DNA from: Candidatus Faecousia faecavium
GTDB lineage: Bacteria > Bacillota > Clostridia > Oscillospirales > Oscillospiraceae
Length of the DNA: 64,000 nt
NCBI GenBank assembly: GCA_018712645.1
Contig: DVGO01000013.1
Location: 1 to 64,000, forward strand
Reading direction: 5' to 3'
In this document: positions 34,582 to 54,580 of the stretch, piece after piece
Layout: the number at the start of each line of letters is the position of its first letter
Position numbering within the stretch: position 1 is the stretch's first letter
Translations under genes and position numbers: made by a program
Notes under the pieces: generated by a model
Databases searched by the model: none
What the model saw: only the letters and a program-made list of their open reading frames with translations
Told to the model about the DNA's origin: nothing

Positions 34582-36006
34582 TTAGGTGACCAAAGGCATG
34601 GTAAAGGTGAATTCGGTTTTGCCATCCTTGGAGCTGACGGAGATATTCTCCCCGTGGCTGCACACGATGGTTTTGACGATGTAAAGTCCCAGACCCCAGC
34701 CGTCCCGGTTCCGGGAACGGGATTTGTCCAGTTTGTGGAACCGGTCAAATACCAGGGGCAGCTCCTCCGGCGGGATGGTATCGCCGTCGTTGGAGACGGA
34801 AACATAGGCTTTGCTGCCCCCTTCCCGGATTTTCAGGCCCAGGGTTCCGCCCCGGGGACAGAATTTAACGGCGTTGTCAATCAGGTTGTAGATCACCTGG
34901 GTGATGGAGTCCTGATTGGCCACGGTGAATACCGGATGGGGCGGGAAGTCCACATCCACATTGATGCCCTTATCGTTAATCTTCTTTTCGAAGGTAATCA
35001 GCACCTGTCCGGCGCATTCTTCCAGATCAAAGTGGATCTTCTGCTCTTCGGGGATGCCCTGTTCCTGCTGCAGCTGGCTGATGTCCAGCATGCTGCGCAC
35101 AAGGCGGCTCAGGCGTTTGGTTTCATCGGAGACGATCTGCAAATAGTGTGCCCGGCGCTCCGGGGGGATCGTACCGTCGAGAATGCCGTCAATGTAGCCG
35201 GAAATGGTGGTCATGGGGGTTTTCAGCTCATGGGAAACATTGGCCACAAATTCCTGCCGGCGGTATTCGCTTTTTTGCAGGGAAGAGGCCATGTTGTTAA
35301 AGGCCAGAGCCAGCTCCTCCACTTCTTCGGAGTAATCTTCTTCCACCCGAACCCGGGCTTCCAGGTTGCCGTGGGCGAAATCGTTGGCGGCTTTCGCCAT
35401 GTCCCGCAGGGGTTTGCTTTCCCGCCGGGCAAAGGCCGTCACTGCCAGAACGGAGATCAGCACTACAAACACGGCGGCGGTGAGGAAGATGTTGGAAATC
35501 CGGTTCAGGGTTTTTCCTGTGGTCAGAGTGGGCACGGAGACAATTACCAGCCCGGTGGCTGTGTCATTGCTGACAATGGGGGCGGAGACCACATATCGTT
35601 CTTCTTCATACAGTCCATCAATGTGACCGGTGGCCGAGTCAGAGCCGTTTTCAAATACCTTCTGCAAATATTCCTGGTTCAGCTGCAAGCCCTGATGCTG
35701 ACACCCGGACAGGGCGTCGGAGCAAAGGATGATGTAGCCGTCACTGTCGCAGATGACCACATCCGCATTGGTGACCTGAGACACCACATTCAGATTCAGA
35801 AGCAGTTCCCGATTGGAAAGGGTTCCGCCTACGTTGTAGGCCGCAGCCAGATTGGAAATGACCTGGGCATCCTGCTCCAGACTGGAAACGGTAGCCCCCA
35901 CCAGATATTCCTTTACCTGGTACTGAAAGGAGGCACCCAGAATGGTCAGTGCCAGCAGCAAAATGGTGGCAGCGGTGGTGAAGCTGCGGGTGAAGGAGGA
36001 TTTCAT
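34582..36006 (-). CDS. WalK-like sensor histidine kinase without an adjacent regulator
   Basis: A 474-residue kinase. Membrane helix 1 lies at about 11-30, an extracellular sensor of about 140 residues follows, and helix 2 is at about 172-192. A HAMP segment follows. The H-box is NVSHELKTPMTTI with His near 259. The ATP-binding domain shows NLIDNAVKFC, VSNDGDTIP and a DGWGLGLYIVK end. No response regulator gene is next to it; the only candidate in the region is at 53894-54580, same strand, 18 kb upstream. Directly upstream is an 18-codon ORF that looks like the tail of a response regulator. It has its own promoter at 36191-36219 and is co-directional with htrA. Confidence 0.9.
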   Translation of the reverse strand: MKSSFTRSFTTAATILLLALTILGASFQYQVKEYLVGATVSSLEQDAQVISNLAAAYNVGGTLSNRELLLNLNVVSQVTNADVVICDSDGYIILCSDALSGCQHQGLQLNQEYLQKVFENGSDSATGHIDGLYEEERYVVSAPIVSNDTATGLVIVSVPTLTTGKTLNRISNIFLTAAVFVVLISVLAVTAFARRESKPLRDMAKAANDFAHGNLEARVRVEEDYSEEVEELALAFNNMASSLQKSEYRRQEFVANVSHELKTPMTTISGYIDGILDGTIPPERRAHYLQIVSDETKRLSRLVRSMLDISQLQQEQGIPEEQKIHFDLEECAGQVLITFEKKINDKGINVDVDFPPHPVFTVANQDSITQVIYNLIDNAVKFCPRGGTLGLKIREGGSKAYVSVSNDGDTIPPEELPLVFDRFHKLDKSRSRNRDGWGLGLYIVKTIVCSHGENISVSSKDGKTEFTFTMPLVT

Positions 36007-36008
36007 CC

Positions 36009-36065
36009 TTACAGCACCTCGAACCTATCGCCCATTCCGGGAGTTCTCTGTTGTTTCTTTCCCAT
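36009..36065 (-). pseudogene. Remnant of a response-regulator 3' end, now a leader ORF
   Basis: An 18-codon ORF with GAGG upstream stops 2 nt before the kinase ATG. Its last nine residues, GMGDRFEVL, align with GVGYKFEVL, the exact C-terminus of the response regulator at 53894-54580. Eighteen of the last 24 nt are identical by eye. I read it as the displaced 3' end of a regulator gene that once abutted the kinase. It may now act as a coupling leader peptide. The match is short, so chance cannot be excluded. Confidence 0.5.
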
Positions 36066-36190
36066 GTTGATTACCTCATTTCTCTGCACCTGTTTATCGG
36101 CATCGTCACTGGTGCGGCAGTTATAGAAGAACCCAAGATGCATGATCTATATGATTTCCAGATCACGGACGCTTCCGAATCGTTACCGTA

Positions 36191-36219
36191 ATTATATCCA
36201 TCTCGAAATCAGAAAGCAA
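36191..36219 (-). promoter_or_regulatory. Promoter of the kinase-htrA unit
   Basis: TTGCTT (36214-36219) and a perfect TATAAT (36191-36196) are spaced 17 nt apart on the minus strand, giving a leader of about 180 nt. Confidence 0.68.
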
Positions 36220-36314
36220 TATTTCAGCCCCAAAATTTACACTTGGGTAACATTCGCCCGGGTTATCGGCACATTGCCATGGGGAAAGAAGGAAAAAAAC
36301 GTGGGCATCTGTCC

Positions 36315-37352
36315 TTAGCCGGAATGAAAAATCACTGAGAAAATCCTGTCGCAAAAAGAAAAAATACGCCTTCGGATATGCCAAATGGGAATATCCGAAG
36401 GCGTATGGTGTGCTGGAATTTTGATTATGGACTTTCTCTGTTTGCTCAGAAAGTCCAGAGTTTCTTTTCTGGTGGGCATGGCTTCAATGACACCGTAACG
36501 GGTAACGCTGAGTGCAGCCGCTGCGGCGGCGAAGCGGGCGGCTTCTTTCAGTGTGGCCCCTTCCGATACTGCGGTGGCAAGGGCGGCGGTAAAGGTATCC
36601 CCGGCACCGGTGGTGTCTACTGCCTGTACGGGGAAAGCGTCTACCAGTTCCCACCGGCCGTTTTCCATCACAAGTACCCCACGCTTTCCCAGGGTAATGG
36701 CGCAGCGGTGTACGCCGGCCTTGTCCAAGGCAAGTCCCAGCGTCTGGGGATCTGCAGGTTCCGCAGCAGACATTCCCAGCATCAGTTTTGCTTCCGTTTC
36801 GTTGGGGGTGACAATGGATGCCAGGGCGATGTCCTGGGGAGAAAGGGGACGATAGGGCGCCGGATTCAAAATGGAGAGCACATGATGTTTCTTTGCCGTC
36901 TCCAGTGCCGCATGGATGGTTTCCACAGGAATTTCCATCTGCATCAGCAATGCATCAGCTTGGGAGATTGGTTCTTCCCACAGGGCAATGTCTGCCGGCT
37001 TCAGCAGATTGTTTGCCCCAAAATCAATGACAATTTCATTTTCTCCCGTGGCGTCCATCGTAATCAGTCCCACTCCGGTAGGGTGACCTTTGGCGATGCG
37101 GATCATATCAGTCTGTACGGATTCCGCGTGAAACAGCTCCATGGCCCGCTGACCATACAAATCGTCACCAATACAGGCAATCAGGCTGGTGTCGGCGTCC
37201 TGACGGGCACATTCCACGGCCTGGTTGGAACCTTTTCCGCCATGAAATGCGGAAAAGCCAAAGCCTTCCACGGTTTCGCCGGGGGATGGAAACCGGGCGG
37301 CCTGGATGGTAAGCCCGGCGGCATAACTTCCTACTACCACAATTTTGGACAT
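36315..37352 (-). CDS. PfkB-family sugar kinase (ribokinase-like), 3' readthrough
   Basis: Cytosolic kinase of 345 residues that would phosphorylate ribose or a related sugar with ATP. It begins IVVVGSYAAGLTIQAARFPSPGETV and has FHGGKGSNQAVECAR. The C-terminal signature DTTGAGDTFTAALA carries the catalytic Asp. GGAGGG precedes ATG 37352. Typical ribokinases end at about 305 residues. Here the frame continues about 40 residues through the hairpin at 36365-36405, so the normal stop codon seems to be lost. It is the last gene of the gntR-FGE-hydrolase-kinase unit; the hydrolase stops 2 nt upstream. Confidence 0.85.
   Translation of the reverse strand: MSKIVVVGSYAAGLTIQAARFPSPGETVEGFGFSAFHGGKGSNQAVECARQDADTSLIACIGDDLYGQRAMELFHAESVQTDMIRIAKGHPTGVGLITMDATGENEIVIDFGANNLLKPADIALWEEPISQADALLMQMEIPVETIHAALETAKKHHVLSILNPAPYRPLSPQDIALASIVTPNETEAKLMLGMSAAEPADPQTLGLALDKAGVHRCAITLGKRGVLVMENGRWELVDAFPVQAVDTTGAGDTFTAALATAVSEGATLKEAARFAAAAAALSVTRYGVIEAMPTRKETLDFLSKQRKSIIKIPAHHTPSDIPIWHIRRRIFSFCDRIFSVIFHSG
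36352..36406 (-). terminator. Strong terminator inside the end of the PfkB ORF
   Basis: A perfect 15-bp stem (36365-36379 with 36391-36405) is followed by a T-rich run on the minus strand. It lies inside the 3' end of the kinase reading frame. Confidence 0.85.
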
Positions 37353-37353
37353 G

Positions 37354-39132
37354 TTAGTTCCCTCCGTTTTTCCAGTCAATGCGCACCATGGAAACTGCAT
37401 CCGGGGATACGCTTCCACTCAACACAGTCCCATTCCAAGAAATTTCCTGACCCAGCAGGGTCAGCATCCCCTGAATGTCCTGCAAAGCCAGAAGGTCACC
37501 GGTGAATACCTGATCGGTGGTATTGCAGAACGTAAAAATGCTGACGCTGCCGTCGTCTGCGTCGAATCGGTTGCAAAGCACCGTGGTGTGCAGCGTGGGA
37601 TACAAAGGCGTCGGATGCATGCCCAGGAAGATTTCCTGGTTGTCCAGCCAGATTTTTTTGTATTTCTTTATTCTTTCTTTCTGGGGGACAGAGTAGGGCA
37701 GCCATGCTCCAAATACATCCTGCCAGATCACCAGACCGGTGCCGGAAAAAATGGCCCGCTCAATCAGACGGGTTTTTCCTTCTCCGGTTGCCCAGCGGGA
37801 AATGATGGGGGCAGGGTGCTCCGGCAGCAAAAAACGCATATAGTCCAGCCGTTCAATGGGGTCGGATGCCTTTGATTTGCCCCAGGAGCTGGTGATATCC
37901 TCCACTGCAGAGCAGGTAGAGGGGTGAACCTCAGAGCAAAATACCACTCCCGGCTTTACGGAATCCAGCGCCGGACGGAATGTGGCAGGTACGCTGTCCA
38001 TGGTATCCAGGAAAAAACCGTCAATTCCGGTATCCACCACCAGCTGGCGAACCTGATCCGATGTTTCGTTCATGGACTGGTCGTTTCCGATGTCCCAAGG
38101 TTTATAAGGAAGGAATACCTTGACACCCTTTTGATGGGCGGCGTCTGCAATGCTGCGCAGACCGTCCCGTCCGCCGGGGAAATCGTCAAAAAAGTCCCAC
38201 TGAGTTCTGCTGTCTACGCCCAGTCTGGGATACTGATGCCAAAGAGTCAGGGTATCATATCCGCCGAATGCTTCCCCGTCTTTCAGCAGCTTGTCCATAG
38301 CAACCTGTCCGTTTTTTTCGTCCCAGCTTTCTTTGGAGTACAGATAGGTGAAGTGATGCAAAACAGTATGCCGCATCCATTGCAGATCCGGGCGGCTGTA
38401 CGCGCATAAATCAAATCGGCTCCGCTGCTGCCGGCGGTACTGAGCAAAAGCCTCCCGCCAGCCTTCCGCCAGGGCGGAAATTTCCAGCTCAAAGGTATCA
38501 CTGAGTACACGGCCCAGACGCAGTGGCATACGATGATTTTCCAGTTCTTTTCTGCTGGAAATCTTTTTCAGATCCACATTCCGGTTTTGAACCGCAGGGG
38601 CAATTTCCGATAGGGTAGGGAAGGCAACGGAAAATCCATACCGGTCATTGTGATCGGTGAGAACATAGGGGAAGGTAAAAAGCGGATGGGCGCGGAACAG
38701 GGAATTGTTGGGATAATATCTGCGCTCTTGCGGATCGGGCAACGTCAGATTTGCCAGGAACGGACAGCATACCCACAGTTCCTCCGGACACTCCCGGTCG
38801 GAAGCGCTCTGCAGCAGAATGTGCACAGCGTCATTTTCCCCCAGAATCAGGGAAAGACGCACATGCAGGGACTGTTCTTCACAGGAGGCATAGACGGAAA
38901 CCAGCTGCTCTGTCTCGTCCTGAAGAATGTCAACACGCTCCACACAAAAGTGGTCAATCTCTCCCCGGCGGGTGGAAAAGCGGAAGAATTTCCCGGTTTC
39001 CGGGCCGTAATTCACTGCCGTACCCTGTCCCAGATGGGTAAGGATTTCACAATGGATTCCGTCATCGAGACGGACTTTCATACGGATTGCCCGGTTTTCA
39101 AGGACAAGTACCTGGCCTTCTTTTTCAATCAT
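37354..39132 (-). CDS. TIM-barrel glycoside-hydrolase-like protein
   Basis: A 592-residue protein. The first 230 residues look like a beta-rich substrate-shaping domain. The centre is a barrel with LWHQYPRLGVDSRTQWDFFDDFPGG, GVKVFLPYKPWD, DTGIDGFFLDTMDS (a candidate nucleophile Asp) and VVFCSEVHP (a candidate acid/base Glu). A C-terminal beta domain closes it. The pattern resembles the GH31/GH36-like and DUF6259 groups, but I cannot assign a substrate. No signal peptide is seen, so it acts inside the cell. It overlaps the FGE-like gene by 4 nt. Confidence 0.68.
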   Translation of the reverse strand: MIEKEGQVLVLENRAIRMKVRLDDGIHCEILTHLGQGTAVNYGPETGKFFRFSTRRGEIDHFCVERVDILQDETEQLVSVYASCEEQSLHVRLSLILGENDAVHILLQSASDRECPEELWVCCPFLANLTLPDPQERRYYPNNSLFRAHPLFTFPYVLTDHNDRYGFSVAFPTLSEIAPAVQNRNVDLKKISSRKELENHRMPLRLGRVLSDTFELEISALAEGWREAFAQYRRQQRSRFDLCAYSRPDLQWMRHTVLHHFTYLYSKESWDEKNGQVAMDKLLKDGEAFGGYDTLTLWHQYPRLGVDSRTQWDFFDDFPGGRDGLRSIADAAHQKGVKVFLPYKPWDIGNDQSMNETSDQVRQLVVDTGIDGFFLDTMDSVPATFRPALDSVKPGVVFCSEVHPSTCSAVEDITSSWGKSKASDPIERLDYMRFLLPEHPAPIISRWATGEGKTRLIERAIFSGTGLVIWQDVFGAWLPYSVPQKERIKKYKKIWLDNQEIFLGMHPTPLYPTLHTTVLCNRFDADDGSVSIFTFCNTTDQVFTGDLLALQDIQGMLTLLGQEISWNGTVLSGSVSPDAVSMVRIDWKNGGN

Positions 39133-39833
39133 ACAAGATCCCTCACACAGCGAAAACCAACGGTTTCATTTCGATTGATTCCTTCATTGAGCAGCGGCAT
39201 TTTCAGATGATAATCATTGCGATGGGGGCCGCCCTCTGCATGCCAGAAGTGGGGGGCTTTGTACCAGCTGCCGCCCCGGAGAAAGGTAAACACATGATCC
39301 CCGTCGTCAATGACATCGGCAACCCATTCCCAGGCATTGCCGCACAGATCCAGGCACCCACAGGGGCTTTTACCCTCCGGAAATGCGTCTACCGGACTGA
39401 GGGTTTCCGTGGCGCAGCGGGTTTTGTCAAACGCATTTCCCCAGGGATATGCCAGCTTTTTGGGTCCACCGGCCAGGTACTGCCACTCCCAGTCAAAAGG
39501 GAGCCGCATGCCATAGTAGCTGGCAAAGGCGTTAGCATCCTTCTGGCTCACCCACACCACCGGACAATCCAAAAGTTCTTCCGGGCAGCGTCCCTGTTCC
39601 CAGTGCCGCAGAAAATTGGTTGTATCTTCGGGATGATATCCGCTTTCCTGCAGAAACTGGAAAAACTGCCTGTTGGTCACAGGATAGCGTCCGGCATAAA
39701 TCGGGGGAGAGGAAACTTCCCGGGGACCATGGTCATACTGACAATCTCCTTCCATGATGCGGTGGCGCACCCGATAAATATAACGAAATGCCTCCACATA
39801 AACCATATCATCGGCGTAAGCTGATTTTCTCAT
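39129..39833 (-). CDS. Formylglycine-generating-enzyme-fold protein
   Basis: A 234-residue protein with the FGE/SUMF1 fold. Signs are GRYPVTNRQFFQFL, RLPFDWEWQYLAGG, YPWGN, CGNAWEWVADV, FLRGGSWYK and NETVGFRCVRD. It is translationally coupled to the hydrolase. The paired active-site cysteines of true FGE (after RGGSW) are not present; the equivalent segment reads HFWHAEGGPHRNDYH. No sulfatase gene is nearby. A role in sulfatase activation is therefore unlikely; it may be a lectin-like or C-S-bond-forming relative. ATG 39833 has AAGGAG upstream. Confidence 0.72.
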   Translation of the reverse strand: MRKSAYADDMVYVEAFRYIYRVRHRIMEGDCQYDHGPREVSSPPIYAGRYPVTNRQFFQFLQESGYHPEDTTNFLRHWEQGRCPEELLDCPVVWVSQKDANAFASYYGMRLPFDWEWQYLAGGPKKLAYPWGNAFDKTRCATETLSPVDAFPEGKSPCGCLDLCGNAWEWVADVIDDGDHVFTFLRGGSWYKAPHFWHAEGGPHRNDYHLKMPLLNEGINRNETVGFRCVRDLV

Positions 39834-39866
39834 GTTGACACTCCTTGTCTGTATGCTGTGCATGGG

Positions 39867-40589
39867 TTATCGTTCCAAAATAGATACAATATCAAACCGC
39901 TCGGAATTGATCCATACACTGGAACACTCCAGGGGACGAGATTTTGCGTCGTATATGATCTGCTCCAGATAGAGTACGGGAGTTCCCGGGGCGAGCCCCA
40001 GATTCTGGGAAACCTCCCCCCAGGCGGGAACGGCTTTGAAATATCTCCGGCCCCACTGGATTTTCTGACCATATTTTCGTTCCAGCAAGGAGAAAATATC
40101 CTGATTTTCAAAATCATTTTCCGCAAAGCCGGGGCAGACTTTTTCCGGAATGATATTGCGCAGGTAGATAACCGGGTTATTCTGGACAAGCCGTACCCGC
40201 TCGATGATACTGACCTGTTCATTTTTCTCAAGCTCCAGATAGGCTGCGACTTTCATATCCGCAGCGGCAATTTCCTGCTTCAGCACAACGGTTTTGTAGC
40301 GCAGTCCCTGCTGCTTCATGGACTCGGCAAAAGAAATCAGCTTGCTGGCCAGATGCTGCTCCAGGGTATTGGATACCACAAATGTTCCCCGCCCCCGGAT
40401 CTGGGTGAGAACGCCCTGGTCAATCAGGTCTTTCAGCGCCCGGCGAAGCGTTCCCCGGCTGATTCCCAGCTGCTGGGACAGGACGATTTCATCCGGCAGT
40501 TTGGTATGCACGGGCCATTTCCCGGATTCAATGTTGCTGCGGATGATTTGAGCAACCTGCTGATAAATTGGTTCACCTTCACGGTACAT
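39867..40589 (-). CDS. GntR-family (HutC/UTRA) transcription regulator
   Basis: A 240-residue regulator. The GntR winged helix is IYQQVAQIIRSNIESGKWPVHTKLPDEIVLSQQLGISRGTLRRALKDLIDQGVL. The C-terminal UTRA ligand domain contains YLRNIIPEKVCPGF and VLYLEQIIYDAKSRPLECSSVW, which usually bind sugar phosphates. I start at ATG 40589, with GGAGG 5 nt upstream. It is divergent from the URO-D-like gene, with GTACAT dyads between them, so it probably controls both and itself. Confidence 0.88.
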   Translation of the reverse strand: MYREGEPIYQQVAQIIRSNIESGKWPVHTKLPDEIVLSQQLGISRGTLRRALKDLIDQGVLTQIRGRGTFVVSNTLEQHLASKLISFAESMKQQGLRYKTVVLKQEIAAADMKVAAYLELEKNEQVSIIERVRLVQNNPVIYLRNIIPEKVCPGFAENDFENQDIFSLLERKYGQKIQWGRRYFKAVPAWGEVSQNLGLAPGTPVLYLEQIIYDAKSRPLECSSVWINSERFDIVSILER

Positions 40590-40610
40590 ACGTTCCTCCA
40601 TTGTTTATAT

Positions 40611-40673
40611 AGGTACATTATATGTATATATATGATGTACTTATAATATACTGCTGCAATCAACGGTTGTCAA
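40611..40673 (-). promoter_or_regulatory. gntR promoter with GTACAT/ATGTAC operator
   Basis: On the minus strand, a perfect TTGACA (40668-40673) and TATATT (40645-40650) are spaced 17 nt apart. Just downstream, 40611-40642 reads as an interrupted dyad of GTACAT and ATGTAC flanking an AT-rich centre. Confidence 0.78.
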
Positions 40674-40718
40674 GGATATATCCATGGAAAAATCCAGTAT
40701 TTCTTGAAAAAATCTGTG

Positions 40719-40778
40719 TTGACACAGGGCTGTGCTTATACTATAATACAAGCAAATAATATGTACAAATATGTACAT
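40719..40778 (+). promoter_or_regulatory. URO-D-like gene promoter with GntR-type operator
   Basis: TTGACA (40719-40724) and TATAAT (40742-40747), both perfect, are spaced 17 nt apart. TATGTACAAATATGTACAT (40760-40778) begins around the start of transcription and repeats the TGTACA element also seen in the gntR operator. Confidence 0.85.
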
Positions 40779-40795
40779 GAAGGAGATGGATTCTT

Positions 40796-42007
40796 ATGAG
40801 CAGCACCAGCAGACAGCGGGTTGTGGATGCACTGCATCATCGCCAGCCGGATTTACTACCCATTGATTTTGCTTCCACCCGCTCAACCGGCATCAACGCG
40901 TATGCCTACCGGGCTCTGACGGAATATCTGGGATTGGAGGAACCAATCTATCTTTTTGATTTCAAGCAGTGCCTGGCCCAGCCCAGTCTCAAGGTATTGG
41001 AGCTGCTGGGAAGTGACTGTCTGCCCCTTTACCGGCAGGCCCCCTCGGGGATTCCCATTGACCGGTACAAAGAGGTGGTCATGGCAGACGGCAAGGTTTA
41101 CATGCTGCCGGAAGGGTATTCTCCCCAAAAAGCCGCAGACGGGTCGGAATATCTTTATGCCAATGGCATCCCCATTCTCAAACGACCCTCCGGCGGGATG
41201 TATTTTGACGATTGTTTTCACCCTTTGGCCCAGGTAGAGGAGGAGCTGCCTGCGTTTCCATTGCCCAAAATGACAGCCCAGGAAAAACACGATTTGGCAG
41301 AGCGCGCCAAGCATCTTTTCACCACCACAGACAAAGCCCTGGTGGCCTCTTCCGGCATCAGCATCTTCGAGCGGGGAATCAAGGACTGGGGTTACGAAGA
41401 ATTCCTGGTGCGCATTTACACCGAGCCCGAACTTGTCTGCAGATATCTGGAAATCCTGACGGATGCGTATCTGCAATTTCTGGATGATTATCTGGATGCG
41501 GTGGGGCCTTATGTTCAGGTGATTCAGTGCAATGATGATCTTGGCATGCAGACAGGTCCGCTGATTGCGCCAAAGGTGTATCAAGACATATTCAAGCCCT
41601 TCCATAGTCGTATTTTCGAGTATATCCACAAAAAGGCTCCCGGCGTGTCCATTTTGCTGCACTCCTGCGGCGGTATTTTTGATCTCATACCCGACCTGAT
41701 CGATGCCGGGGTGGATGCCCTGAATCCGGTTCAGACGGATGCTGCGAATATGGACCCGGCTGCTCTGAAAAGAGAATTCGGCAAAGACATCACCTTCTGG
41801 GGAGGCGGCTGCAGTACCCAGAAAACCCTCACCTTTGCTGCGCCGGAAGAGATCCGAAAGGAAGTTTACAAAATGGCGGAAATCTTCTCACCGGGTGGCG
41901 GCTTTGTCTTTAACCAGGTGCATAATATCCAGAGCAATATTTCTCCCGACCGGGTGCTTACCCTGTACAGGGCAATTCTGGAGTGGAGAGAAACCCACAG
42001 AAGCTGA
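40796..42007 (+). CDS. Uroporphyrinogen-decarboxylase-fold protein (MtaA/CmuA-like)
   Basis: A 403-residue protein with the URO-D fold. Signs are RVVDALHHRQPDLLPIDF at the N-terminus, HSCGGIFDLIPDLIDAGVDALNPVQTDAANMDP and FWGGGCSTQKTL. These are typical of the catabolic methyltransferase-like branch (corrinoid:methyl transfer) and not of haem synthesis HemE. The His-Cys pair in LHSCGG is a possible zinc ligand. AAGGAG precedes ATG 40796. It is transcribed alone, divergent from gntR. Its substrate is unknown. Confidence 0.82.
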   Translation: MSSTSRQRVVDALHHRQPDLLPIDFASTRSTGINAYAYRALTEYLGLEEPIYLFDFKQCLAQPSLKVLELLGSDCLPLYRQAPSGIPIDRYKEVVMADGKVYMLPEGYSPQKAADGSEYLYANGIPILKRPSGGMYFDDCFHPLAQVEEELPAFPLPKMTAQEKHDLAERAKHLFTTTDKALVASSGISIFERGIKDWGYEEFLVRIYTEPELVCRYLEILTDAYLQFLDDYLDAVGPYVQVIQCNDDLGMQTGPLIAPKVYQDIFKPFHSRIFEYIHKKAPGVSILLHSCGGIFDLIPDLIDAGVDALNPVQTDAANMDPAALKREFGKDITFWGGGCSTQKTLTFAAPEEIRKEVYKMAEIFSPGGGFVFNQVHNIQSNISPDRVLTLYRAILEWRETHRS

Positions 42008-42027
42008 CCCGACATTCAAAATAACAC

Positions 42028-42068
42028 AGCCGCCATCTCCGTGCTGCATTGGGAAGATGGCGGCTTAT
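42028..42068. terminator. Bidirectional terminator between the URO-D-like gene and citF
   Basis: An 11-bp perfect stem (42028-42038 with 42055-42065) is followed by TATTTTG. It lies between convergent genes. Confidence 0.75.
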
Positions 42069-42078
42069 TTTGCTTTCT

Positions 42079-43647: not shown

Positions 43648-43650
43648 GGC

Positions 43651-44905: not shown

Positions 44906-44923
44906 TGTTCACCTGGCGGCCAA

Positions 44924-45913
44924 TCAGCCTTCCATGATAATGTCGGTAATTTTTTCTGCGAAATCTTTGATATCAATGCCCTTGGTAAACTTCAGGCAGG
45001 TTCCGGTGGGATAGCGGGTTTTCTCAATCCAGTGGGCTGGCATCTGGCTTGCGCCGTATTTGGCACCCAGAATCACGCCGGCCACTGCACCGATGGTGTC
45101 CGCGTCACGGCCAAAGTTTCCTGCTACGGTAACACCGCTGCGGAAATCTTTGTTGACTGCTTTCAGACAGACAAAGGCGGAGGGAATGGCTTCGGCGGTG
45201 GTTGCCCAGGAACTGGTCCATAAGTAATCGTGCAAATCCATCCAGGCGTCCAGCAGACTGCCCGCTTCTTCCAGAATCCGGAATGCACCGGTCATATTGT
45301 GATACAGCCAAGAATCCTCAGGGATTGCAGACATTGCCGCAGCGATGATCTCATCCATGGTGCCGTCTACCATTGCCACAGACACGGCGGCGGCCACTGC
45401 CTGTGCGCCCCAGATGCCGTCACGGTAATGGCTGATGCTGGATTCGATTTCTGCCAAACGCTTTGCCTCTTCCGGATCGCCTGCACACAGAATGCCCACA
45501 GGACCAATGCGCATGGAAGAACCGTCGCTCATGTGGAAGGCATTGAACTTGCCCGACAGGGGAGGCAGCAGGCCCTTGCGCAGGTTGTTGGCCGCCTCAA
45601 TTTCGCTGGCGCCGCCCCGCTTGTATTCGTCCTGGGTTACCACGTCTTCCATCCAGGATTTCACAACTTCTTCGGTGGTAAGCTTGCCATGGCAGCGAAT
45701 AATGGTTTTGGCGGTCAACAGGGCAAACTCCGTGTCATCGGTGCTCCAGGACGCCCCTTTGTTAAAATCTGTGGTAACCGCGTAATTTACACGGTTTTCC
45801 TGCTTCCGAGAGGCATCACCAAAGGAATCGCCAATGGCCAATCCGGAAAGCGCACCATAAACTTTGTCAAAGACTTTGTTGCGATCTTTAACGAATTCTT
45901 GTCTTGTCAGCAT
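44924..45913 (-). CDS. ADP-ribosylglycohydrolase-fold protein (ARH1-like)
   Basis: A 329-residue all-helical ARH family protein. The two metal-binding motifs are intact: SWSTDDTEFALLTAK near residue 56 and GRDADTIGAVAGVILGA near 270. It also has KVYGALSGLAIGDSFGD at the N-terminus. ARH enzymes cleave N- or O-glycosidic bonds to ADP-ribose, but many bacterial members act on small glycosides. Position in a sugar ABC transporter operon argues for a small-molecule ribosyl-type substrate. GAGG precedes ATG 45913. It is 32 nt downstream of the solute-binding protein gene. Confidence 0.85.
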   Translation of the reverse strand: MLTRQEFVKDRNKVFDKVYGALSGLAIGDSFGDASRKQENRVNYAVTTDFNKGASWSTDDTEFALLTAKTIIRCHGKLTTEEVVKSWMEDVVTQDEYKRGGASEIEAANNLRKGLLPPLSGKFNAFHMSDGSSMRIGPVGILCAGDPEEAKRLAEIESSISHYRDGIWGAQAVAAAVSVAMVDGTMDEIIAAAMSAIPEDSWLYHNMTGAFRILEEAGSLLDAWMDLHDYLWTSSWATTAEAIPSAFVCLKAVNKDFRSGVTVAGNFGRDADTIGAVAGVILGAKYGASQMPAHWIEKTRYPTGTCLKFTKGIDIKDFAEKITDIIMEG

Positions 45914-45945
45914 TATTTCAACCTCTGCTTATTTTTTATAATTGG

Positions 45946-47445: not shown

Positions 47446-47488
47446 TTTTGCTTCCTCCTAAAGTATTTTTTCATATGGGGATACGGGG

Positions 47489-48382
47489 TTATTCCTTCAC
47501 GCCGCCAGCCATAACATCCTTGTTGTAGTACTTCAGAACCAGAGGATACACAAGCAGGATGGGAATGATGGCGACGACGATGGTTGCATATTGGAGCGCC
47601 GTGTAGTCCAGCTGGGCAAGCTGGTTATACTCCATAAGGTTTTGGGCGCCCACCAGATTGGTAACATCTCCGTTCACAACAAACTTGCGCAGAATGACCT
47701 GCAGGGGAACTTCTGTGATGGAAGAGATATAGATACCGGCACGGTAATATTCGTTCCAACGAACCACACCATAGAACATGGTCAGCGTGGCGATTCCGGC
47801 TTTGGACAGCGGCGCCATGATCCGGAACAAAATATTGAAATGTCCGGCTCCGTCAATGGTGGCTGCTTCGCACAGTGTTTTGGGAACGGATTCAAAATAG
47901 CGCATCATAATGACCAGGTAGTATACATTGCAGGCCTGGCTGAGTATGACGGACCATTTGGTTCCCATCAACCCCAGCTGCCGGATGACGATGTATTCCG
48001 GAACGATACCCGGGTCAAACAGCATCATCACAATGAAAAAGGCCATCAGGATTTTCTTTCCCACCAGATTCGGACGGGTAAGCACATAAGCGGCGCACAT
48101 GGTTAAGAGCATGTTGATCAGCGTACCCACCGTGGTGATGAAGATAGAGTTAAAAATCGACGGTACAATATACTGGTTGCTGAACAGCACCTGGTAGTTA
48201 ATCAAAGAGAATCCGTTGGGGATGATATCCAGTCCGTTCATAGAACCCGACTGCGCCGGATCTGACAAAGATCTTGCCAGAATATGAAGCAGGGGAACAA
48301 TCATGGTCAAGGTCAGTGCGAACAGGAAAATCATCAGAATCCACTGCATGATGCCCAGGCTTTTTTTACTCAGTCTTCCCAT
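47489..48382 (-). CDS. ABC sugar-type permease (LplC/YtcP-like)
   Basis: A 297-residue permease with six hydrophobic segments. The cytoplasmic EAA loop reads CEAATIDGAGHFNILFRIMAPLSKAGIATL, which contacts the ATPase. It pairs with the permease gene 3 nt upstream. This is the carbohydrate-type (CUT1-like) group. The C-terminal end PLVLKYYNKDVMAGGVKE is typical of MalG/LplC proteins. Confidence 0.9.
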   Translation of the reverse strand: MGRLSKKSLGIMQWILMIFLFALTLTMIVPLLHILARSLSDPAQSGSMNGLDIIPNGFSLINYQVLFSNQYIVPSIFNSIFITTVGTLINMLLTMCAAYVLTRPNLVGKKILMAFFIVMMLFDPGIVPEYIVIRQLGLMGTKWSVILSQACNVYYLVIMMRYFESVPKTLCEAATIDGAGHFNILFRIMAPLSKAGIATLTMFYGVVRWNEYYRAGIYISSITEVPLQVILRKFVVNGDVTNLVGAQNLMEYNQLAQLDYTALQYATIVVAIIPILLVYPLVLKYYNKDVMAGGVKE

Positions 48383-48385
48383 AAA

Positions 48386-49330
48386 TTACCACACACCCTC
48401 TCCAGTCAATTTCTTCGACGTAATATGCGTAAAGTAAACCAAAATCACACCAACTACACCTTTAATCAGGGAAACGGCGGTACCCAGAGAATACTGGCTG
48501 TTTTCGATACCGATTCGGTTCACATAGGTATCGAGAATATCGATGGTGCTGTTGACGGACGAGTTGGTGAAGTTGTAGACCTGATCGAAACCGGCGGACA
48601 TGAAGAAGCCCAGATTCAGGATAAACACAGTGGTCATAGGAATCAGCAGTTCCGGAAGGATGATGTGAAAGATAATGTCTTTTCTGCTGGCTCCGTCCAG
48701 AGCGGCGGCTTCGTAAATATCGGAACTGATGCTGATAATGGCGGTGTAGAAGATAATGGAGTCCCAGCCAAGGCTTCGCCAGGCTTCACAGAACATCAGT
48801 ACCCAACGAATGGCTCCTTTGTCGGTGAGCAAATCCACGGCATCATGTCCGAACAGGCCAATGATAATGTTGATTGCGCTGTTGTCGCTGGGCGCCAGGA
48901 AAGATTTCCAGATACCGGCAATCACAACCCAGCTCAGAAAATGGGGCAGATAGGAAACCACCTGCACATATTTTCTGAATTTCTGTACCCGCAGCTCGTT
49001 GAGAACCAGTGCAAAAATGACGAAAGCGGGGAACAGCAGCACATACTTCATAAAGCTGATAATGACGGTGTTCGTCAAAATCTGGGCGAAGGCAGGGCTT
49101 TTGAAGAGCATCTCAAAGTACTTCAGTCCTGCAAACTCCCAAGGCCCTCTTGCTTTGTAATCGTAAAAAGCCAATCGCATATTCAGGATGGGCCATACCC
49201 GGAAAATGAAAAAGTAAATCAATGTGGGCAGCAGCATCAGATACAAGATCTTATCCCGCCAGATTTTTTCCGCCGCTGCACCCAGCCGGCCGGAACCCAA
49301 ACGTAAGCTATGCGCGTTGTTTTTCATCAT
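48386..49330 (-). CDS. ABC sugar-type permease (LplB-like)
   Basis: A 314-residue permease with six membrane segments and the EAA loop YEAAALDGASRKDIIFHIILPELLIPM. It is the first gene of the permease-permease-binding protein-ARH operon. ATG 49330 (or 49327) has GGGGAGG upstream. The promoter and LacI operator lie at 49351-49401. Confidence 0.9.
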   Translation of the reverse strand: MMKNNAHSLRLGSGRLGAAAEKIWRDKILYLMLLPTLIYFFIFRVWPILNMRLAFYDYKARGPWEFAGLKYFEMLFKSPAFAQILTNTVIISFMKYVLLFPAFVIFALVLNELRVQKFRKYVQVVSYLPHFLSWVVIAGIWKSFLAPSDNSAINIIIGLFGHDAVDLLTDKGAIRWVLMFCEAWRSLGWDSIIFYTAIISISSDIYEAAALDGASRKDIIFHIILPELLIPMTTVFILNLGFFMSAGFDQVYNFTNSSVNSTIDILDTYVNRIGIENSQYSLGTAVSLIKGVVGVILVYFTHITSKKLTGEGVW

Positions 49331-49349
49331 ATTTTTTCCTCCCCAAGAG

Positions 49350-49418
49350 AGTAACCGGTTTCTTTAATTAGGATTATACATTTTCTAAATTATCATTTCA
49401 AGCTGTGATTCTTCACAG
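49350..49418 (-). promoter_or_regulatory. ABC/ARH operon promoter with LacI operator and upstream dyad
   Basis: On the minus strand, TTGAAA (49396-49401) and a perfect TATAAT (49373-49378) are spaced 17 nt apart. Downstream lies GAAACCGGTTAC (49351-49362). Upstream of the -35 is a perfect dyad CTGTGA-N4-TCACAG (49403-49418). Confidence 0.85.
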
Positions 49419-49519
49419 ATTTTCTTTTCCGAATTTAGTAAAGTGGCACAGACAGTCCGGCAGCCGTCTGATTGTGGTTTTGACTGCTTGCCTTTATTAT
49501 GTCATGAAAATTCAATCCG

Positions 49520-49566
49520 CATAAAAAGAAAACAGGCATGGAAACCGGGAATGGTTTCCATGCCTG
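49520..49566 (-). terminator. Terminator after lacI-type gene
   Basis: A perfect 14-bp stem (49533-49546 with 49553-49566) is followed on the minus strand by TTTTCTTTTT. Confidence 0.88.
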
Positions 49567-49579
49567 GGGGCAGGGTGGT

Positions 49580-50599
49580 TTATACACTTCGTGTGGTTTC
49601 CCGCAATACCAGGGTTGGCTCTACCACGGTATGGGGCAAAGCAATGGTTTGGCCTTGAATAATGCGGATCAGCTGCTCGGAAATATGCTGGGCCATTTCA
49701 TAATGGGGCTTGGAAACAGTGGATAACGTGGGATGAAAGACGGTTGTCAATCCAATATTGTCATATCCGATTACTTCCACATCGTCAGGAATACGGACGC
49801 CGTTTTTCAGCAATTCCGTGACGATTCCGATGGCGATCAAATCGCTTCCTGTCATAATGGAATCCAACTTCATACCACTTTTCAGCAGGTTTTTTGCCAC
49901 ATATCTGCCAAAATCAATACTATAATCCCCGCTGATGATCAATTCCTCCTGAATGGGAATGCCATATTCCAGATGGGCCTGCTGATATCCCTGCAGCCGT
50001 TGCTGAGAGCCTGTGACCTTTGGATTTCCTTCCACATAGACAACGCGCCTGCTTCCTGTCTTTAATAAATGGGAGGCAGAGATATAGCCGCCGCGAATGT
50101 TGTCACCGGAAATGCTGGTATCGCTGAGGGAATAGTCGTTGCGTCTGCCGATCAGACCCAGAGGAATGTTGTATTTCCGAAAATCGGTGAGAAATTCCTT
50201 ATTGGATACCCCAGAAAACAGCAAAATTCCGTCTACTCGCCGATCAATCAGACGCATCAGCTGCTGGGCTTCCTGTTCCGGGCTGTAATCAGAGTTGCCC
50301 ACAATGACGGAATACCCGCAGGTATCCAGATAATCCGTGACGCCGCGTATCATTTTTGGATAGAAAAAGTTGGATACATCCGGGATAATCAGTCCGATTG
50401 TGCCACTTTTGGAGGTAGCAACACTCCGGGCCAGGGCGTTGGGACGGTAATTCAGATCCTGAATGGTTTTTAAGATTTTCTCTCTGGTTTTGGGCCCGAC
50501 TCCTTGGGGATTGGCGTTGATCACACGAGATACGGTGGCTTTGGAGACACCACAAATTTGAGCAATTTCGGCGATAGAATAGCTTTTTTTCTCTGCCAT
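49580..50599 (-). CDS. LacI-family transcription regulator
   Basis: A 339-residue repressor. The N-terminal LacI helix-turn-helix and hinge are SIAEIAQICGVSKATVSRVINANPQGVGPKTREKILKTIQDLNYRPNALARS. The C-terminal periplasmic-binding-like domain starts GTIGLIIPDVSNFFYPKMIRGV. It lies between the ABC/ARH operon and the ARH-kinase operon. The shared AAACCGGTTAC sites at both promoters fit its typical palindromic target. GAGG precedes ATG 50599. Confidence 0.9.
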   Translation of the reverse strand: MAEKKSYSIAEIAQICGVSKATVSRVINANPQGVGPKTREKILKTIQDLNYRPNALARSVATSKSGTIGLIIPDVSNFFYPKMIRGVTDYLDTCGYSVIVGNSDYSPEQEAQQLMRLIDRRVDGILLFSGVSNKEFLTDFRKYNIPLGLIGRRNDYSLSDTSISGDNIRGGYISASHLLKTGSRRVVYVEGNPKVTGSQQRLQGYQQAHLEYGIPIQEELIISGDYSIDFGRYVAKNLLKSGMKLDSIMTGSDLIAIGIVTELLKNGVRIPDDVEVIGYDNIGLTTVFHPTLSTVSKPHYEMAQHISEQLIRIIQGQTIALPHTVVEPTLVLRETTRSV

Positions 50600-50706
50600 G
50601 TTTTTCTACCTCGTTTCCCAGAAGCGTATGAAACATTTCTTAAATGTATCATATCACAAGGGTTCACGTCCTGGCAACTGTTTTTCCAATTTTTTTCCCG
50701 GCTATC

Positions 50707-50764
50707 TTGAAATCTTAAAAAAAGTATGCTATTATCGAGTAAACCGGTTACCTTCCGGTTTACA
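50707..50764 (+). promoter_or_regulatory. ARH2-kinase operon promoter with LacI operator
   Basis: TTGAAA (50707-50712) and TATTAT (50730-50735) are spaced 17 nt apart. GTAAACCGGTTACC (50739-50752) follows at once, and a half-site CCGGTTTAC lies just after it. Confidence 0.85.
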
Positions 50765-50797
50765 TCAATATCACATTTAATGGGGAAGGTGTCTGTC

Positions 50798-52897
50798 ATG
50801 CTGACAAATTACTTGGAAAAAGTGTATGCTGGCTTTTTGGGAATGAACATCGGAATCCGGCTGGGTGCCCCGGTAGAGCCCACAATCTGGTCCTATGAAC
50901 GAATCTATAAAACCTACGGAGATATCCGGGGCTATGTCAAAGAATATAAAAACTTCGCAGCAGACGACGATGCCAACGGTCCTGTGTACTTCCTGCGAGC
51001 CTTGCTGGACGATGCCGTTGACAGACCCCTGACACCCCAGGATGTGGCCCGGGCTTGGCTTAACTATGCCCGGGAAGGTTTGGGTATGTTCTGGTGGGGC
51101 GGATATGGCAGAAGCACGGAACACACCGCCTATCTGAACCTGAAGCATGGCATTCCTGCTCCCCAGTCTGGTTCCATTGCCCAAAATGGAAAAATCATTG
51201 CAGAACAGATCGGCGGACAGATCTTCATTGATACCTGGGGCCTGGTCAATCCCTGCAATCCCAAGCGTGCTGCGGATTATGGACAGGCTGCCGCCTCGGT
51301 TTCCCATGACGGGGACGGCGTTTGGGGCGCGCGGTTTATGTGCGCTGCCATTGCCAAAGCCTTTGAAACCGGGGATGTAATGGAAATTGTTGCCGCAGGT
51401 CTTGCAGAAATCCCCGAAGACAGCACTTACCATAAGGTCTGTGATGCAGTATTGGATTTCTACAAGAAGCACCCCGAGGATTGGCGCGCATGCTATCAGA
51501 TGCTGGTGGCAGATTGGGGCTACGACAAATATCAGGGCGTGTGCCACATTATCCCCAACGCCGGTGTATGCATGATGGCTTTGGCCTACGGCCAGGGCAA
51601 CTTCTGCCGTACCATTGAGATTGCTACCATGGCCGGTTGGGATACAGACTGCAACGCGGGCAATGTGGGCACGATTATGGGCGTGGCCTGCGGCATGGAG
51701 GGCCTGCCCCGGCATTATCTGGACCCCATCAACGACGGCATCGTCTGCTCCGGCATTTCCGGATACCTCAACATCATTGACATTCCTTCCTTCTGCCGGG
51801 AAGTTGCCATGCTGGGCTATCGGCTGAACCAGGAGCCCATGCCGGAAGATCTGCGCAATGCCTATCGTCCCGGAGAAATCTACTTCGACTTTGAACTGCC
51901 CGGCTCTACCCACAATATCCGCGTTTCGGACAGCTTCCTGTGCCGGGTGACCCACAGCACAAAGAAGGCATATCGGGGAACCGGTTCTCTGGAAATTCTC
52001 ATGGACCGGATGCTTCGGGGACAGAACTGCAAGGTATTTTACAAGCCCTTCTATATCCGTCAGGATTTCTCCGACGAGCGGTACAGTCCTGTGTTTACGC
52101 CTACGGTATATCCCGGCATGACGGTTTCCATGAAGCTGTGCCTGGACCAGTGGAACGGAAACGAAACCCCTGCGGTTGCGCCTTATATCCGTACCTGCAG
52201 TGATAAGGTTGATCATGTTCAGGGGTACATCAAGCTGCAGCAGGACAAGTGGATTGACGTTACCTTCACCATTCCGGATACCAACGGCGATATGATCGAC
52301 GAAGTTGGCTTCCTGCTGGAAAGCTACACGCCCAAGGACAAGACCCTGGGCGTGGTGTACCTGGACGAGTTCTGCATTTCCGGCAAAACAGCCTATACCA
52401 TTGATATGGCAAAACAGCATAACGATTTTGCTGCCATTACCCCCTTCTCCCTGGACCATGGAGCCTGGGATCTGTACGGCGGCACCCTGAATCTGATGCG
52501 CTGCGAACCTTCCTTTGCCTACACCGGTCACTATTATGCTGCGGACTATGTGTGCTCCGCTCCGGTCACACCCTTGAATGGAACCAGCCACCTGCTGATT
52601 GCCCGGGCCCAGGGCGCCATGCGCTGCTATGCCGGCGGTTTGGGCAGTGAAGGAAAACTGGTGCTGATGAAGAACGATTTTGGTTTCCAGACTCTGGCAG
52701 AATGTGCATTTGACTGGCAGCCCAATCAGACCTACCAGATTACCCTGACCTGCAAGGGCAATCATATCAGTCTGCAGGTCGATGGCGTAGACTATCTGCA
52801 AGTGGAAGACGATTCGTTCCGGTATGGCATGTACGGCTGTGGTTCTCTGGAAACCGGACGGACCGCCTTTGGCAACTTTGCATATCGTGACCTGTAA
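50798..52897 (+). CDS. Large ARH-fold glycohydrolase with C-terminal beta-sandwich domains
   Basis: A 699-residue two-part protein. The N-terminal 350 residues or so form an ADP-ribosylglycohydrolase fold. Signs are KVYAGFLGMNIGIRLGAP, the first metal motif region FAADDDANGP, SHDGDGVWGARFM and the second motif GWDTDCNAGNVGTIMGV. The remaining 340 residues are beta-rich, with two domains that resemble carbohydrate-binding or LamG-like sandwiches. There is no signal peptide. ATG 50798 has GGGGAAGG upstream. It is co-transcribed with a sugar kinase 15 nt downstream, so it likely releases the sugar that the kinase uses. Confidence 0.82.
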   Translation: MLTNYLEKVYAGFLGMNIGIRLGAPVEPTIWSYERIYKTYGDIRGYVKEYKNFAADDDANGPVYFLRALLDDAVDRPLTPQDVARAWLNYAREGLGMFWWGGYGRSTEHTAYLNLKHGIPAPQSGSIAQNGKIIAEQIGGQIFIDTWGLVNPCNPKRAADYGQAAASVSHDGDGVWGARFMCAAIAKAFETGDVMEIVAAGLAEIPEDSTYHKVCDAVLDFYKKHPEDWRACYQMLVADWGYDKYQGVCHIIPNAGVCMMALAYGQGNFCRTIEIATMAGWDTDCNAGNVGTIMGVACGMEGLPRHYLDPINDGIVCSGISGYLNIIDIPSFCREVAMLGYRLNQEPMPEDLRNAYRPGEIYFDFELPGSTHNIRVSDSFLCRVTHSTKKAYRGTGSLEILMDRMLRGQNCKVFYKPFYIRQDFSDERYSPVFTPTVYPGMTVSMKLCLDQWNGNETPAVAPYIRTCSDKVDHVQGYIKLQQDKWIDVTFTIPDTNGDMIDEVGFLLESYTPKDKTLGVVYLDEFCISGKTAYTIDMAKQHNDFAAITPFSLDHGAWDLYGGTLNLMRCEPSFAYTGHYYAADYVCSAPVTPLNGTSHLLIARAQGAMRCYAGGLGSEGKLVLMKNDFGFQTLAECAFDWQPNQTYQITLTCKGNHISLQVDGVDYLQVEDDSFRYGMYGCGSLETGRTAFGNFAYRDL

Positions 52898-52912
52898 TAG
52901 GGGGGAGACGGT

Positions 52913-53800
52913 ATGAAAATTTTGTGTTTTGGTTCTCTTAATCTGGACAAAGTCTACTCTGTTACCCATTTTGTACGGGCAGGAGAAACCCTCTCCTCTA
53001 CCAAAATGCAGGAATTCTGCGGCGGCAAGGGCCTGAACCAATCGGTTGCCCTGGCCCGGGCGGGGGCGGAAACCTACCACGCCGGCTGCGTAGGCCAGGC
53101 AGATGGAGAGCCTCTGCTGGCCATGCTCCGCTCCAGCGGCGTGGACACCACACTGGTGCGGATGCTGCCCTGTCCCAGCGGTCATGCCATTATTCAGGTC
53201 AATGAACAGGGGCAAAACTGCATCCTCCTGTACGGTGGTGCCAACCAGGAGGTAACCAAGGAGCAAATTGACGCAGTGCTGGAGCAGTTCCAGCCTGGGG
53301 ATATGCTGGTTTTGCAGAATGAAATCAACAATCTTCCTTACCTCATGGAAACCGCCGGGAAAAAGGGTATGGAGATTGTGCTGAATCCTTCTCCCATGAA
53401 CGATGCCATTTTAAAGCTCCCTCTGGAATATGTTCGTTATTTTATTCTCAACGAAGTGGAAGCGAGGGATTTGTGCGCTGAAGAAGGGCCGGAGGAAGCT
53501 TTTGCCGACAAACTGCTGCGCAGATTCCCCAACAGCAAAATTGTGCTGACTTTGGGAAGCAAAGGCTCCATCTATGTGGATCAGAAGCAGCGCGTCATCC
53601 AGCCGGCCTACCGGGTGGAAGCTGTTGATACCACTGCCGCGGGAGATACCTTTACCGGGTATTTCCTGGCAGGGATCGCCGGAGGAATGGATGTGAAAGC
53701 GGCTTTGCAGCAGGCTGCAAAAGCTGCAGCCATCGCAGTCAGCCGAAAAGGCGCAGCGCCCAGCATCCCCACATTGGAAGAAACCCAGGCTTTCCGGTAA
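52913..53800 (+). CDS. PfkB-family sugar kinase (ribokinase-like)
   Basis: A 295-residue kinase. It begins ILCFGSLNLDKVYSVTHFVRAGETL, has CGGKGLNQSVALARAG, and ends with the phosphotransfer signature DTTAAGDTFTGYFLAG containing the catalytic Asp. The ribokinase group, possibly a ribose or nucleoside kinase, fits best. It follows ARH2 by 15 nt with GGGGGG near ATG 52913. Its partner enzyme and the LacI operator suggest phosphorylation of a sugar released from a glycoside. Length is normal, unlike the copy at 36315-37352. Confidence 0.88.
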   Translation: MKILCFGSLNLDKVYSVTHFVRAGETLSSTKMQEFCGGKGLNQSVALARAGAETYHAGCVGQADGEPLLAMLRSSGVDTTLVRMLPCPSGHAIIQVNEQGQNCILLYGGANQEVTKEQIDAVLEQFQPGDMLVLQNEINNLPYLMETAGKKGMEIVLNPSPMNDAILKLPLEYVRYFILNEVEARDLCAEEGPEEAFADKLLRRFPNSKIVLTLGSKGSIYVDQKQRVIQPAYRVEAVDTTAAGDTFTGYFLAGIAGGMDVKAALQQAAKAAAIAVSRKGAAPSIPTLEETQAFR

Positions 53801-53848
53801 GAATTTTTTTACAGAACCCTTTTCTTTGAAAAATCCTCCTAAAACAAG

Positions 53849-53880
53849 AAAAAAGTGCTTGCAGCGCAAGCACTTTTTTC
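53849..53880. terminator. Bidirectional terminator between the kinase and the response regulator
   Basis: A perfect 10-bp stem AAGTGCTTGC with GCAAGCACTT and a 3-nt loop is flanked by A and T runs on both sides. Confidence 0.85.
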
Positions 53881-53893
53881 TTTCTATCGCTAG

Positions 53894-54580
53894 TTACAGG
53901 ACTTCAAACTTATACCCAACGCCCCAGACGGTTTTCAGGCTCCAGCTTTCGCTGACCCCTTCCAGCTTTTCCCGCAGCCGCTTGACGTGTACGTCTACGG
54001 TACGGCTGTCGCCGAAGTAGTCAAAGCCCCAGACCTCGTCCAGCAGCTGGTTACGGGTGTAGACCCGGTTGGGAGAGGAGGCCAGGTAGTAAAGCAGCTC
54101 CATCTCCTTGGGGGGTGTGTCGATTTTCTTGCCGTCCACGGTCAGCTCAAAGGCGTCCATGTCAATAATCAGCTTGTCAAAGACCAGACGGCGGGCTTTC
54201 TTTTCCGCGGTGACACCGCTGCTGCGGCGCAGAACCGCTTCAATTCTGGCCAGAACTTCCTTCATTTCAAAGGGTTTGGTGATGTAATCATCGGCGCCGG
54301 ATTTGAGACCCGACACCTTGTCGTCGGTTTCTCCCTTGGCGGTGAGCATAATCACCGGGGTCTGGGATTCGGCCCGGATGGTCTTGCAAACCGTCCAGCC
54401 ATCCATCACCGGCATCATCACGTCCAGCAGTACCAGATCGGGCTTGATGGCCCGGAACTTGCTCAGACCCTGACCGCCATCGGCGGCAACGGTAACGGCG
54501 TAGCCCTCCTTTTCCAGGTACATCTGCAAAAGTTCTGCAATATTACGGTCGTCCTCAACAATCAAAACGGAGACAGCCAT
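53894..54580 (-). CDS. WalR-like OmpR-family response regulator, orphan
   Basis: A 228-residue regulator. The receiver domain has VEDDRNIAELL at the N-terminus, the phosphoacceptor Asp near 53 in LVLLDVMMPVMDGW and the conserved Lys in ITKPFE. The winged helix has TRNQLLDEVWGFDYFGDSRTVDVHVKRLREKLE and ends WGVGYKFEVL. No kinase is adjacent. The kinase-htrA operon on the same strand begins 18 kb downstream and is preceded by a fragment matching this C-terminus. GGGAGG precedes ATG 54580. Confidence 0.92.
   Translation of the reverse strand: MAVSVLIVEDDRNIAELLQMYLEKEGYAVTVAADGGQGLSKFRAIKPDLVLLDVMMPVMDGWTVCKTIRAESQTPVIMLTAKGETDDKVSGLKSGADDYITKPFEMKEVLARIEAVLRRSSGVTAEKKARRLVFDKLIIDMDAFELTVDGKKIDTPPKEMELLYYLASSPNRVYTRNQLLDEVWGFDYFGDSRTVDVHVKRLREKLEGVSESWSLKTVWGVGYKFEVL

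Follow-up and report, generated by a model that had tools for sequence, protein, structure and literature searches.

A probable mobile island between a response-regulator gene and a sensor-kinase gene in Candidatus Faecousia faecavium

Integrative and mobilizable elements (IMEs) and integrative and conjugative elements (ICEs) with tyrosine integrases target the ends of genes, according to the main texts of three papers (PMC4701971, PMC5704250, PMC5357655). Is the island described here of the same kind? It lies in a 64-kb window (positions 1 to 64,000 of contig DVGO01000013.1 of Candidatus Faecousia faecavium), between the gene of an OmpR/PhoB-type response regulator and those of a sensor histidine kinase and an HtrA-like serine protease. 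As in the IMEs and ICEs of those texts, the site is a conserved gene 3' end and direct repeats stand at the ends; the integrase at one end, beside the target gene, is found here in G030, G497 and G512 (G-numbers denote genomes and L-numbers the loci compared; G000 is the source of the window). Unlike theirs, its target is the leading gene of an operon, for a two-component response regulator, and the G000 island is without integrase and relaxase; 'response regulator' and 'two-component' are absent from the main texts of the three papers. We put at about 0.85 the probability that this is a mobile island that uses the regulator 3' end, the integration site of a family of tyrosine-integrase elements. 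The G000 island is best read as related to a mobilizable element but lacking the integrase.

A second precedent is prophage HK022, which sits between torS and torT in Escherichia coli (PMC6814406). There too a mobile element stands between a sensor-kinase gene and the region that natively controls it. A promoter inside the prophage drives the kinase, with activity measured there, whereas the promoter in G000 is a sequence candidate. The torS and torT genes are divergent and torS has lost its native promoters; in G000, on the other hand, the element interrupts an operon, parting regulator from kinase, the regulator acquires a new 3' end, and the kinase is preceded by a leader open reading frame (ORF) that reaches up to it. 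The open literature, within the terms used and by title, gave no title with a response-regulator 3' end as integration site. Integration at a gene 3' end usually leaves the target gene unharmed. Here the integration falls in an operon's leading gene, so that the genes behind it, for kinase and protease, are left without a promoter unless element or host provides one.

The empty site and the two junctions

The order on the minus strand is regulator, 17,865 bp of other genes, kinase and HtrA-like protease (table 1). The original prediction, made from the letters of the window alone, held that an island of about 17.9 kb had entered here and that close relatives would carry a contiguous operon. 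Both expectations were borne out. The interval 36029–53893 is missing in G020, and in G020, G505 and G507 the regulator and kinase are contiguous, rather than separated with no trace of contiguity; their spacing is the stop codon plus 2 nt, that is 5 nt, as gaps are counted from the last sense codon. For G505 and G507 the junction region alone was read, while G020 was compared over a 34-kb contig, which aligns to window positions 12549–29704, 32213–36028 and 53894–63386, small breaks aside, at 92.7–98.1% identity. It is collinear with G000, in the same orientation, on both flanks of the island. G020 also lacks a separate 2.5 kb downstream of htrA (29705–32212), which contains a 688-aa ORF at 29719–31785 on the minus strand.

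Could the genes have been split by a translocation or inversion instead of an insertion? The two genes stand on opposite strands in G494 (L249) and G497 (L250), with 12.4 and 12.9 kb between them, so that an inversion there may have had one breakpoint at the regulator–kinase junction. For G000 such a rearrangement is scarcely credible: the comparison with G020, in which both flanks keep order and orientation, already largely refutes it, and a shared core stands at both ends of the island.

Nor is the empty site likely to be secondary. An older island, already carried by the ancestor of the G000 group and lost by precise excision in G020, G505 and G507, is expected to leave the same empty site, and elsewhere in the genus some clades are split throughout. 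However, these four genomes form one clade in the kinase tree (Shimodaira–Hasegawa-like approximate likelihood-ratio support, SH-aLRT, 99); a single gain in G000 suffices, whereas an ancestral island needs at least two losses among three adjacent relatives, and in the next relatives (G429, G508, G524) regulator and kinase are adjacent too.

How was the regulator gene left intact? Its last 13 nt carry three silent differences from G020, while the preceding 125 nt carry none. On the kinase side, G000 equals G020 without difference from 36024 into the kinase (first 45 nt). The silent changes on one side and the identity on the other show that the regulator 3' end is foreign and that the host's old regulator 3' end is stranded beside the kinase. 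This is what the original prediction had proposed from a small ORF upstream of the kinase, which matches the regulator in 18 of the final 24 nt. The two strands of the 64 kb together contain exactly two copies of a degenerate 13-nt core, RTARRTTYGARGT; their starts, 53913 and 36028, are the two junctions. We estimate the chance expectation at about 0.06, assuming equal bases. Thus two marks of tyrosine-integrase IMEs and ICEs are present in G000: a short direct repeat, one copy at each end, in agreement with the empty target site (G020, G505, G507), and a target 3' end restored by the element, the intact regulator having element-borne final codons.

Integrase-bearing relatives and the island of G000

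Two further marks of such elements, an integrase at one end and a relaxase or mobilization gene, are found in relatives. In G030 a gap of 15.7 kb at the same place holds, after the regulator, a hairpin, the tyrosine integrase P0003, a coupling protein, two Ser/Thr protein kinases, a relaxase and the kinase-side element end, about 0.7 kb ahead of the kinase. Integrases like P0003 (E ≤ 1e-40) occur in three of the 136 genomes of the genus, G000 counted in: G030, G497 and G512. In all three the integrase starts shortly after the regulator stop, at 125 nt in G497 and G512 and at 141 nt in G030. Over 34 nt, the hairpins behind the regulator in G000 and in the G030 element are 88% identical (E 1.6e-5).

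At E ≤ 1e-60 the integrase was absent from 394 genomes sampled across the order, a negative of little weight because the sample contained no known positive. A protein database gave 140 homologues of P0003 at E ≤ 1e-20 (7999 candidates scored), of which 120 were listed; 32 clusters of homologues reach 70% identity or more with P0003 across 98% or more of its length. We also considered a phage origin of the element, which found no support: viral contigs searched with the regulator 3' end gave no match, and the viral relatives that the integrase has are remote, at about 23–31% identity save for one 45% stretch of 40 residues.

The island of G000 itself has no integrase among its 14 main ORFs, and tblastn with the relative's integrase gave a best E of 0.19 and no remnant; family matches and tblastn thus agree with the original prediction that no integrase is visible. 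The island would then have been moved by an integrase in trans, or have lost its own. Integration would have taken place in the final codons (YKFEV) of the regulator gene. Recombination in the shared core ATARGTTYGA would have supplied the element-borne regulator 3' end, with a terminator-like hairpin behind it, and left the old end beside the kinase, an outcome shown by the comparison with G020. There the island end provides a Shine-Dalgarno sequence and a start codon, which turn the stranded tail into an 18-codon leader that stops 2 nt short of the kinase start; some 125 nt higher up, a candidate of the form TGTAAA...TATAAT probably transcribes kinase and htrA.

The cargo had been described as wholly accessory and catabolic. 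Most of the cargo fits that description; one 592-aa protein has no family match. In the other 59 relatives compared, near matches to the island DNA amount to two 65–69% pieces in G001.

Table 1. Features of the window (minus-strand genes read from higher to lower positions).
Feature	Position	Strand	Remarks
OmpR/PhoB-type response regulator	53894..54580	-	Response_reg + Trans_reg_C; final 13 nt taken as element-borne
Sensor histidine kinase	34582..36006	-	HAMP, HisKA, HATPase_c
HtrA-like serine protease	33298..34575	-	Trypsin_2 + PDZ; still adjoins kinase; below NCBIfam cut-offs
Island, 17,865 bp, missing in G020	36029..53893	.	limits good to within core of ~10 nt
Left junction core (attL-like) ATAAGTTTGAAGT	53901..53913	-	one of two core sites in window
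Right junction core (attR-like) ATAGGTTCGAGGT	36016..36028	-	one of two core sites in window
Terminator-like hairpin after regulator stop	53848..53880	-	generic scan did not list it
Leader ORF MGKKQQRTPGMGDRFEVL-stop, 18 codons	36009..36065	-	GAGG ahead of ATG; ends RFEVL (old regulator tail), 2 nt before kinase ATG
Candidate kinase promoter, box TGTAAATTTT + TATAAT	36191..36241	-	45 nt start to start; sole pattern match in G000 genome
PfkB-family sugar kinase (cargo)	52913..53800	+	
ADP-ribosylglycohydrolase-domain protein, 723 aa (cargo)	50726..52897	+	
LacI-family regulator (cargo)	49580..50599	-	
ABC permease (cargo)	48386..49330	-	
ABC permease (cargo)	47489..48382	-	below curated cut-off; named from neighbour context
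Solute-binding protein (cargo)	45946..47445	-	
ADP-ribosylglycohydrolase family protein (cargo)	44924..45913	-	
CitE-like lyase (cargo)	43651..44601	-	below NCBIfam cut-off
Citrate lyase alpha subunit CitF (cargo)	42079..43647	-	
URO-D/methyltransferase-like protein (cargo)	40796..42007	+	
GntR-UTRA regulator (cargo)	39867..40601	-	
Formylglycine-generating-enzyme (FGE)-like protein (cargo)	39129..39863	-	
592-aa protein (cargo)	37354..39132	-	no Pfam or NCBIfam match
PfkB-family sugar kinase (cargo)	36315..37418	-	

The separated pair and its signals

Are the separated regulator and kinase still partners? The regulator protein is 99.6–100% identical to its counterparts in G020, G505 and G507, where it stands directly before a kinase 98% identical to that of G000. 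From these relatives we regard it as most likely that the two remain a functional pair. That the kinase is now paired with another regulator, leaving the separated one an orphan, is very unlikely in the face of these identities, even though the shared operon is lost and G000 has a second OmpR-type regulator, 43% identical to the split one. The OmpR/WalR-like regulator, the WalK-like kinase and htrA are in place as originally described. The best NCBIfam matches of the regulator are MtrA and then YycF, the latter with 236 of the 340 bits needed for the equivalog cut-off, and that of the kinase is WalK, with 267 of 725. WalR–WalK (YycFG) and MtrA–MtrB are therefore the closest NCBIfam matches, yet every score is below the equivalog cut-off, and on these scores the WalR/WalK naming denotes resemblance only. 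WalR/WalK is essential and has the partners YycH and YycI; the neighbour at the G000 locus is htrA. A long open frame, codon-aligned with the regulator, runs antisense to it at 53987–54661 on the plus strand.

The leader ORF stops at the kinase start, at the same place as the regulator end in the intact operon, which suggests translational coupling from leader to kinase. Ten islands (G000 and nine others) align here: AAATGAGGTnA..ATG, about 35 nt and then ATAAGTTCGAGGTGCTGTAA. The alignment omits L077, L099, L216 and L269 of fourteen kinase-side ends. The core is present at 13 of the 14, L099 being the exception, and in 11 of these 13 a start with a Shine-Dalgarno-like stretch stands in the regulator frame (in G030, further up). 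Folding of the kinase leader region was unremarkable (z 0.53). That a misassembled metagenome bin put a foreign stretch into the operon is highly improbable. The G000 assembly is indeed incomplete (89% complete, 82 contigs), but the island ends exactly at a hotspot, its kinase-side end matches islands of other assemblies, and host sequence resumes on both sides.

What might transcribe the kinase? TGTAAA[CT]TTT followed by TATAAT, with starts 43–45 nt apart, lies upstream of 20 of the 42 split kinases, G000 among them, and we consider that kinase and htrA are probably transcribed from this island promoter candidate. Across 12 whole genomes chosen for the purpose (six split, in which the pattern was already known, and six adjacent) the pattern occurred eight times, six of them at a split kinase, and the reversed pattern never. 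One of the other occurrences precedes an apparent toxin–antitoxin pair (by eye). Outside the box, the -35 and the -10, the promoter sequences diverge between clades (by eye), pointing either to strong constraint or to acquisition on several occasions. The regulator's own promoter was surveyed in 115 loci, 105 with TATAAT; in 65 of these 105, TTTACAA stands 36 nt before TATAAT (in one more, 37). This promoter contains TTTACA-N5-TTCAC, which resembles the WalR box, and the TGTAAA box is the inverse of its TTTACA. Our guess would be that the regulator binds both the TTTACAA and the TGTAAA boxes.

Several points weigh against the mobile island and signals proposed above. Neither an integrase nor a relaxase is among its 14 main ORFs. 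Two of the three integrase cases, in G497 and G512, are near-identical (each gene 99.8% to P0044), so that at most two are independent. The leader of G000 is common to other islands in its tail and start region only; in L216 the in-frame starts are without a Shine-Dalgarno, L077 is out of frame and L099 has no core. None of 61 adjacent kinases has even a TGTAAA box within 260 nt upstream, but this control is weak because the region upstream of an adjacent kinase is regulator coding sequence. Two of the eight occurrences of the pattern are not kinase promoters, the -35 of the G000 candidate is poor, and a generic sigma-70 scan gave no promoter there. Ten short islands of the leader type are without the TGTAAA promoter, both features being found at the kinase in G000 only; the promoter is thus not a general feature of the element.

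Repeated splitting of the operon in the genus

The regulator–kinase junction is a hotspot of repeated insertion in the genus. Both genes were found at E ≤ 1e-100 in 121 of the 136 genomes, giving 123 pairs (two each in G032 and G498, the second of G498 being a distant paralogue, 42%). Adjacent genes (-1 to 38 nt) account for 81 of these, another 32 have gaps of 49–3343 nt and five are on different contigs; the remaining five are far apart or inverted (G000, 17.9 kb; G030, 15.7 kb; G516, 39.4 kb; G494 and G497, opposite strands). Contig ends account for further cases. An extra regulator of G488, a different-contig pair, is truncated 249 nt before the kinase; in G443 and G461, two of four kinase-only genomes, a regulator is truncated before the kinase; and in G523, listed as regulator-only, the sequence runs directly into a kinase start. 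To explain the split state, a kinase tree of 60 rows requires 14 changes, of which well-supported branches force 11. A 101-row tree, in which split loci were over-represented on purpose and two short rows left out, needs 19.

Is this junction exceptional? In a 60-locus control, with alignment-based starts, the regulator–kinase gap exceeded 250 nt in 15 of 58 loci measured (up to 17.9 kb) and the kinase–htrA gap in five of 45 (up to 1.5 kb). In the remaining 15 of the 60 loci htrA was not found, six of them with 10 kb of sequence past the kinase, so that htrA is not an invariable neighbour.

The inserts are diverse. The insert of L098, between the two genes, encodes a complete MmeI-like restriction-modification protein (6783–9569). 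Long inserts or rearrangements carry URO-D, transporter and corrinoid-activator-type genes in G009 (L070, L071) and 39 kb of genes in G516 (L247, L248). A recurring short insert resembles a type I toxin–antitoxin pair by eye (L069:17150-17420, L072, L074, L087, L254, L264); Rfam gave no match to it in L069, L072 and L074, and on six loci yielded two tRNAs only, both in L078. In L072, L133 and L153 about 60–90 nt of the regulator 3' end, from approximately the same codons, are repeated ahead of the kinase (by eye); of these loci, L133 and L153 are only remotely related, at 44–45% kinase identity. In the short islands L076, L077 and L092 the regulator end forms an inverted repeat whose 11-bp arms flank a 7-bp spacer with the stop codon (AAATTCGAAGT-7-ACTTCGAATTT), resembling a recombinase core site.

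Cassette-like arrays of small ORFs, each followed by a hairpin series of about 165 nt, occur at L073:963-2079, L187:5970-7230 and L188:3420-4040. The series begins at the ORF stop codon (AACTAAGTTTGCC) and is spaced by GTGAAGTT, then AACTTCAC; in L073 and L188 one ORF each is a 23S rRNA-intervening-sequence protein (PF05635). Clusters of GTGAAGTT number 81 in 41 loci, overlapping loci being counted repeatedly, and those of the reversed sequence none. Weaker copies occur in the order-level relatives G046 and G059. These combinations of ORF and hairpins may be integron-like. After the regulator stop of L274, L275 and L270 stands a second version of the series, with the repeated word ATGAAATC and the start AAATCCACC versus AAGTTTGCC, as though word and start varied in step; clusters were found in L274 and L275, and L270 was recognized by eye.

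What might these splits mean for the family? A wider picture, which we offer tentatively and hold to be possible rather than probable, is that of an element family in this Oscillospiraceae genus that lands at the 3' end of a two-component regulator and carries a kit for repairing the operon. To the regulator the kit would give a new 3' end with terminator, to the kinase a leader ORF with start signals. Other splits, which may be older, would add a promoter whose box may be bound by the regulator, restoring common control, and the operon would have been cut and rewired repeatedly across the genus. With 42 of 123 pairs non-adjacent, the genus offers many natural before-and-after pairs for testing how a two-component system survives being cut.

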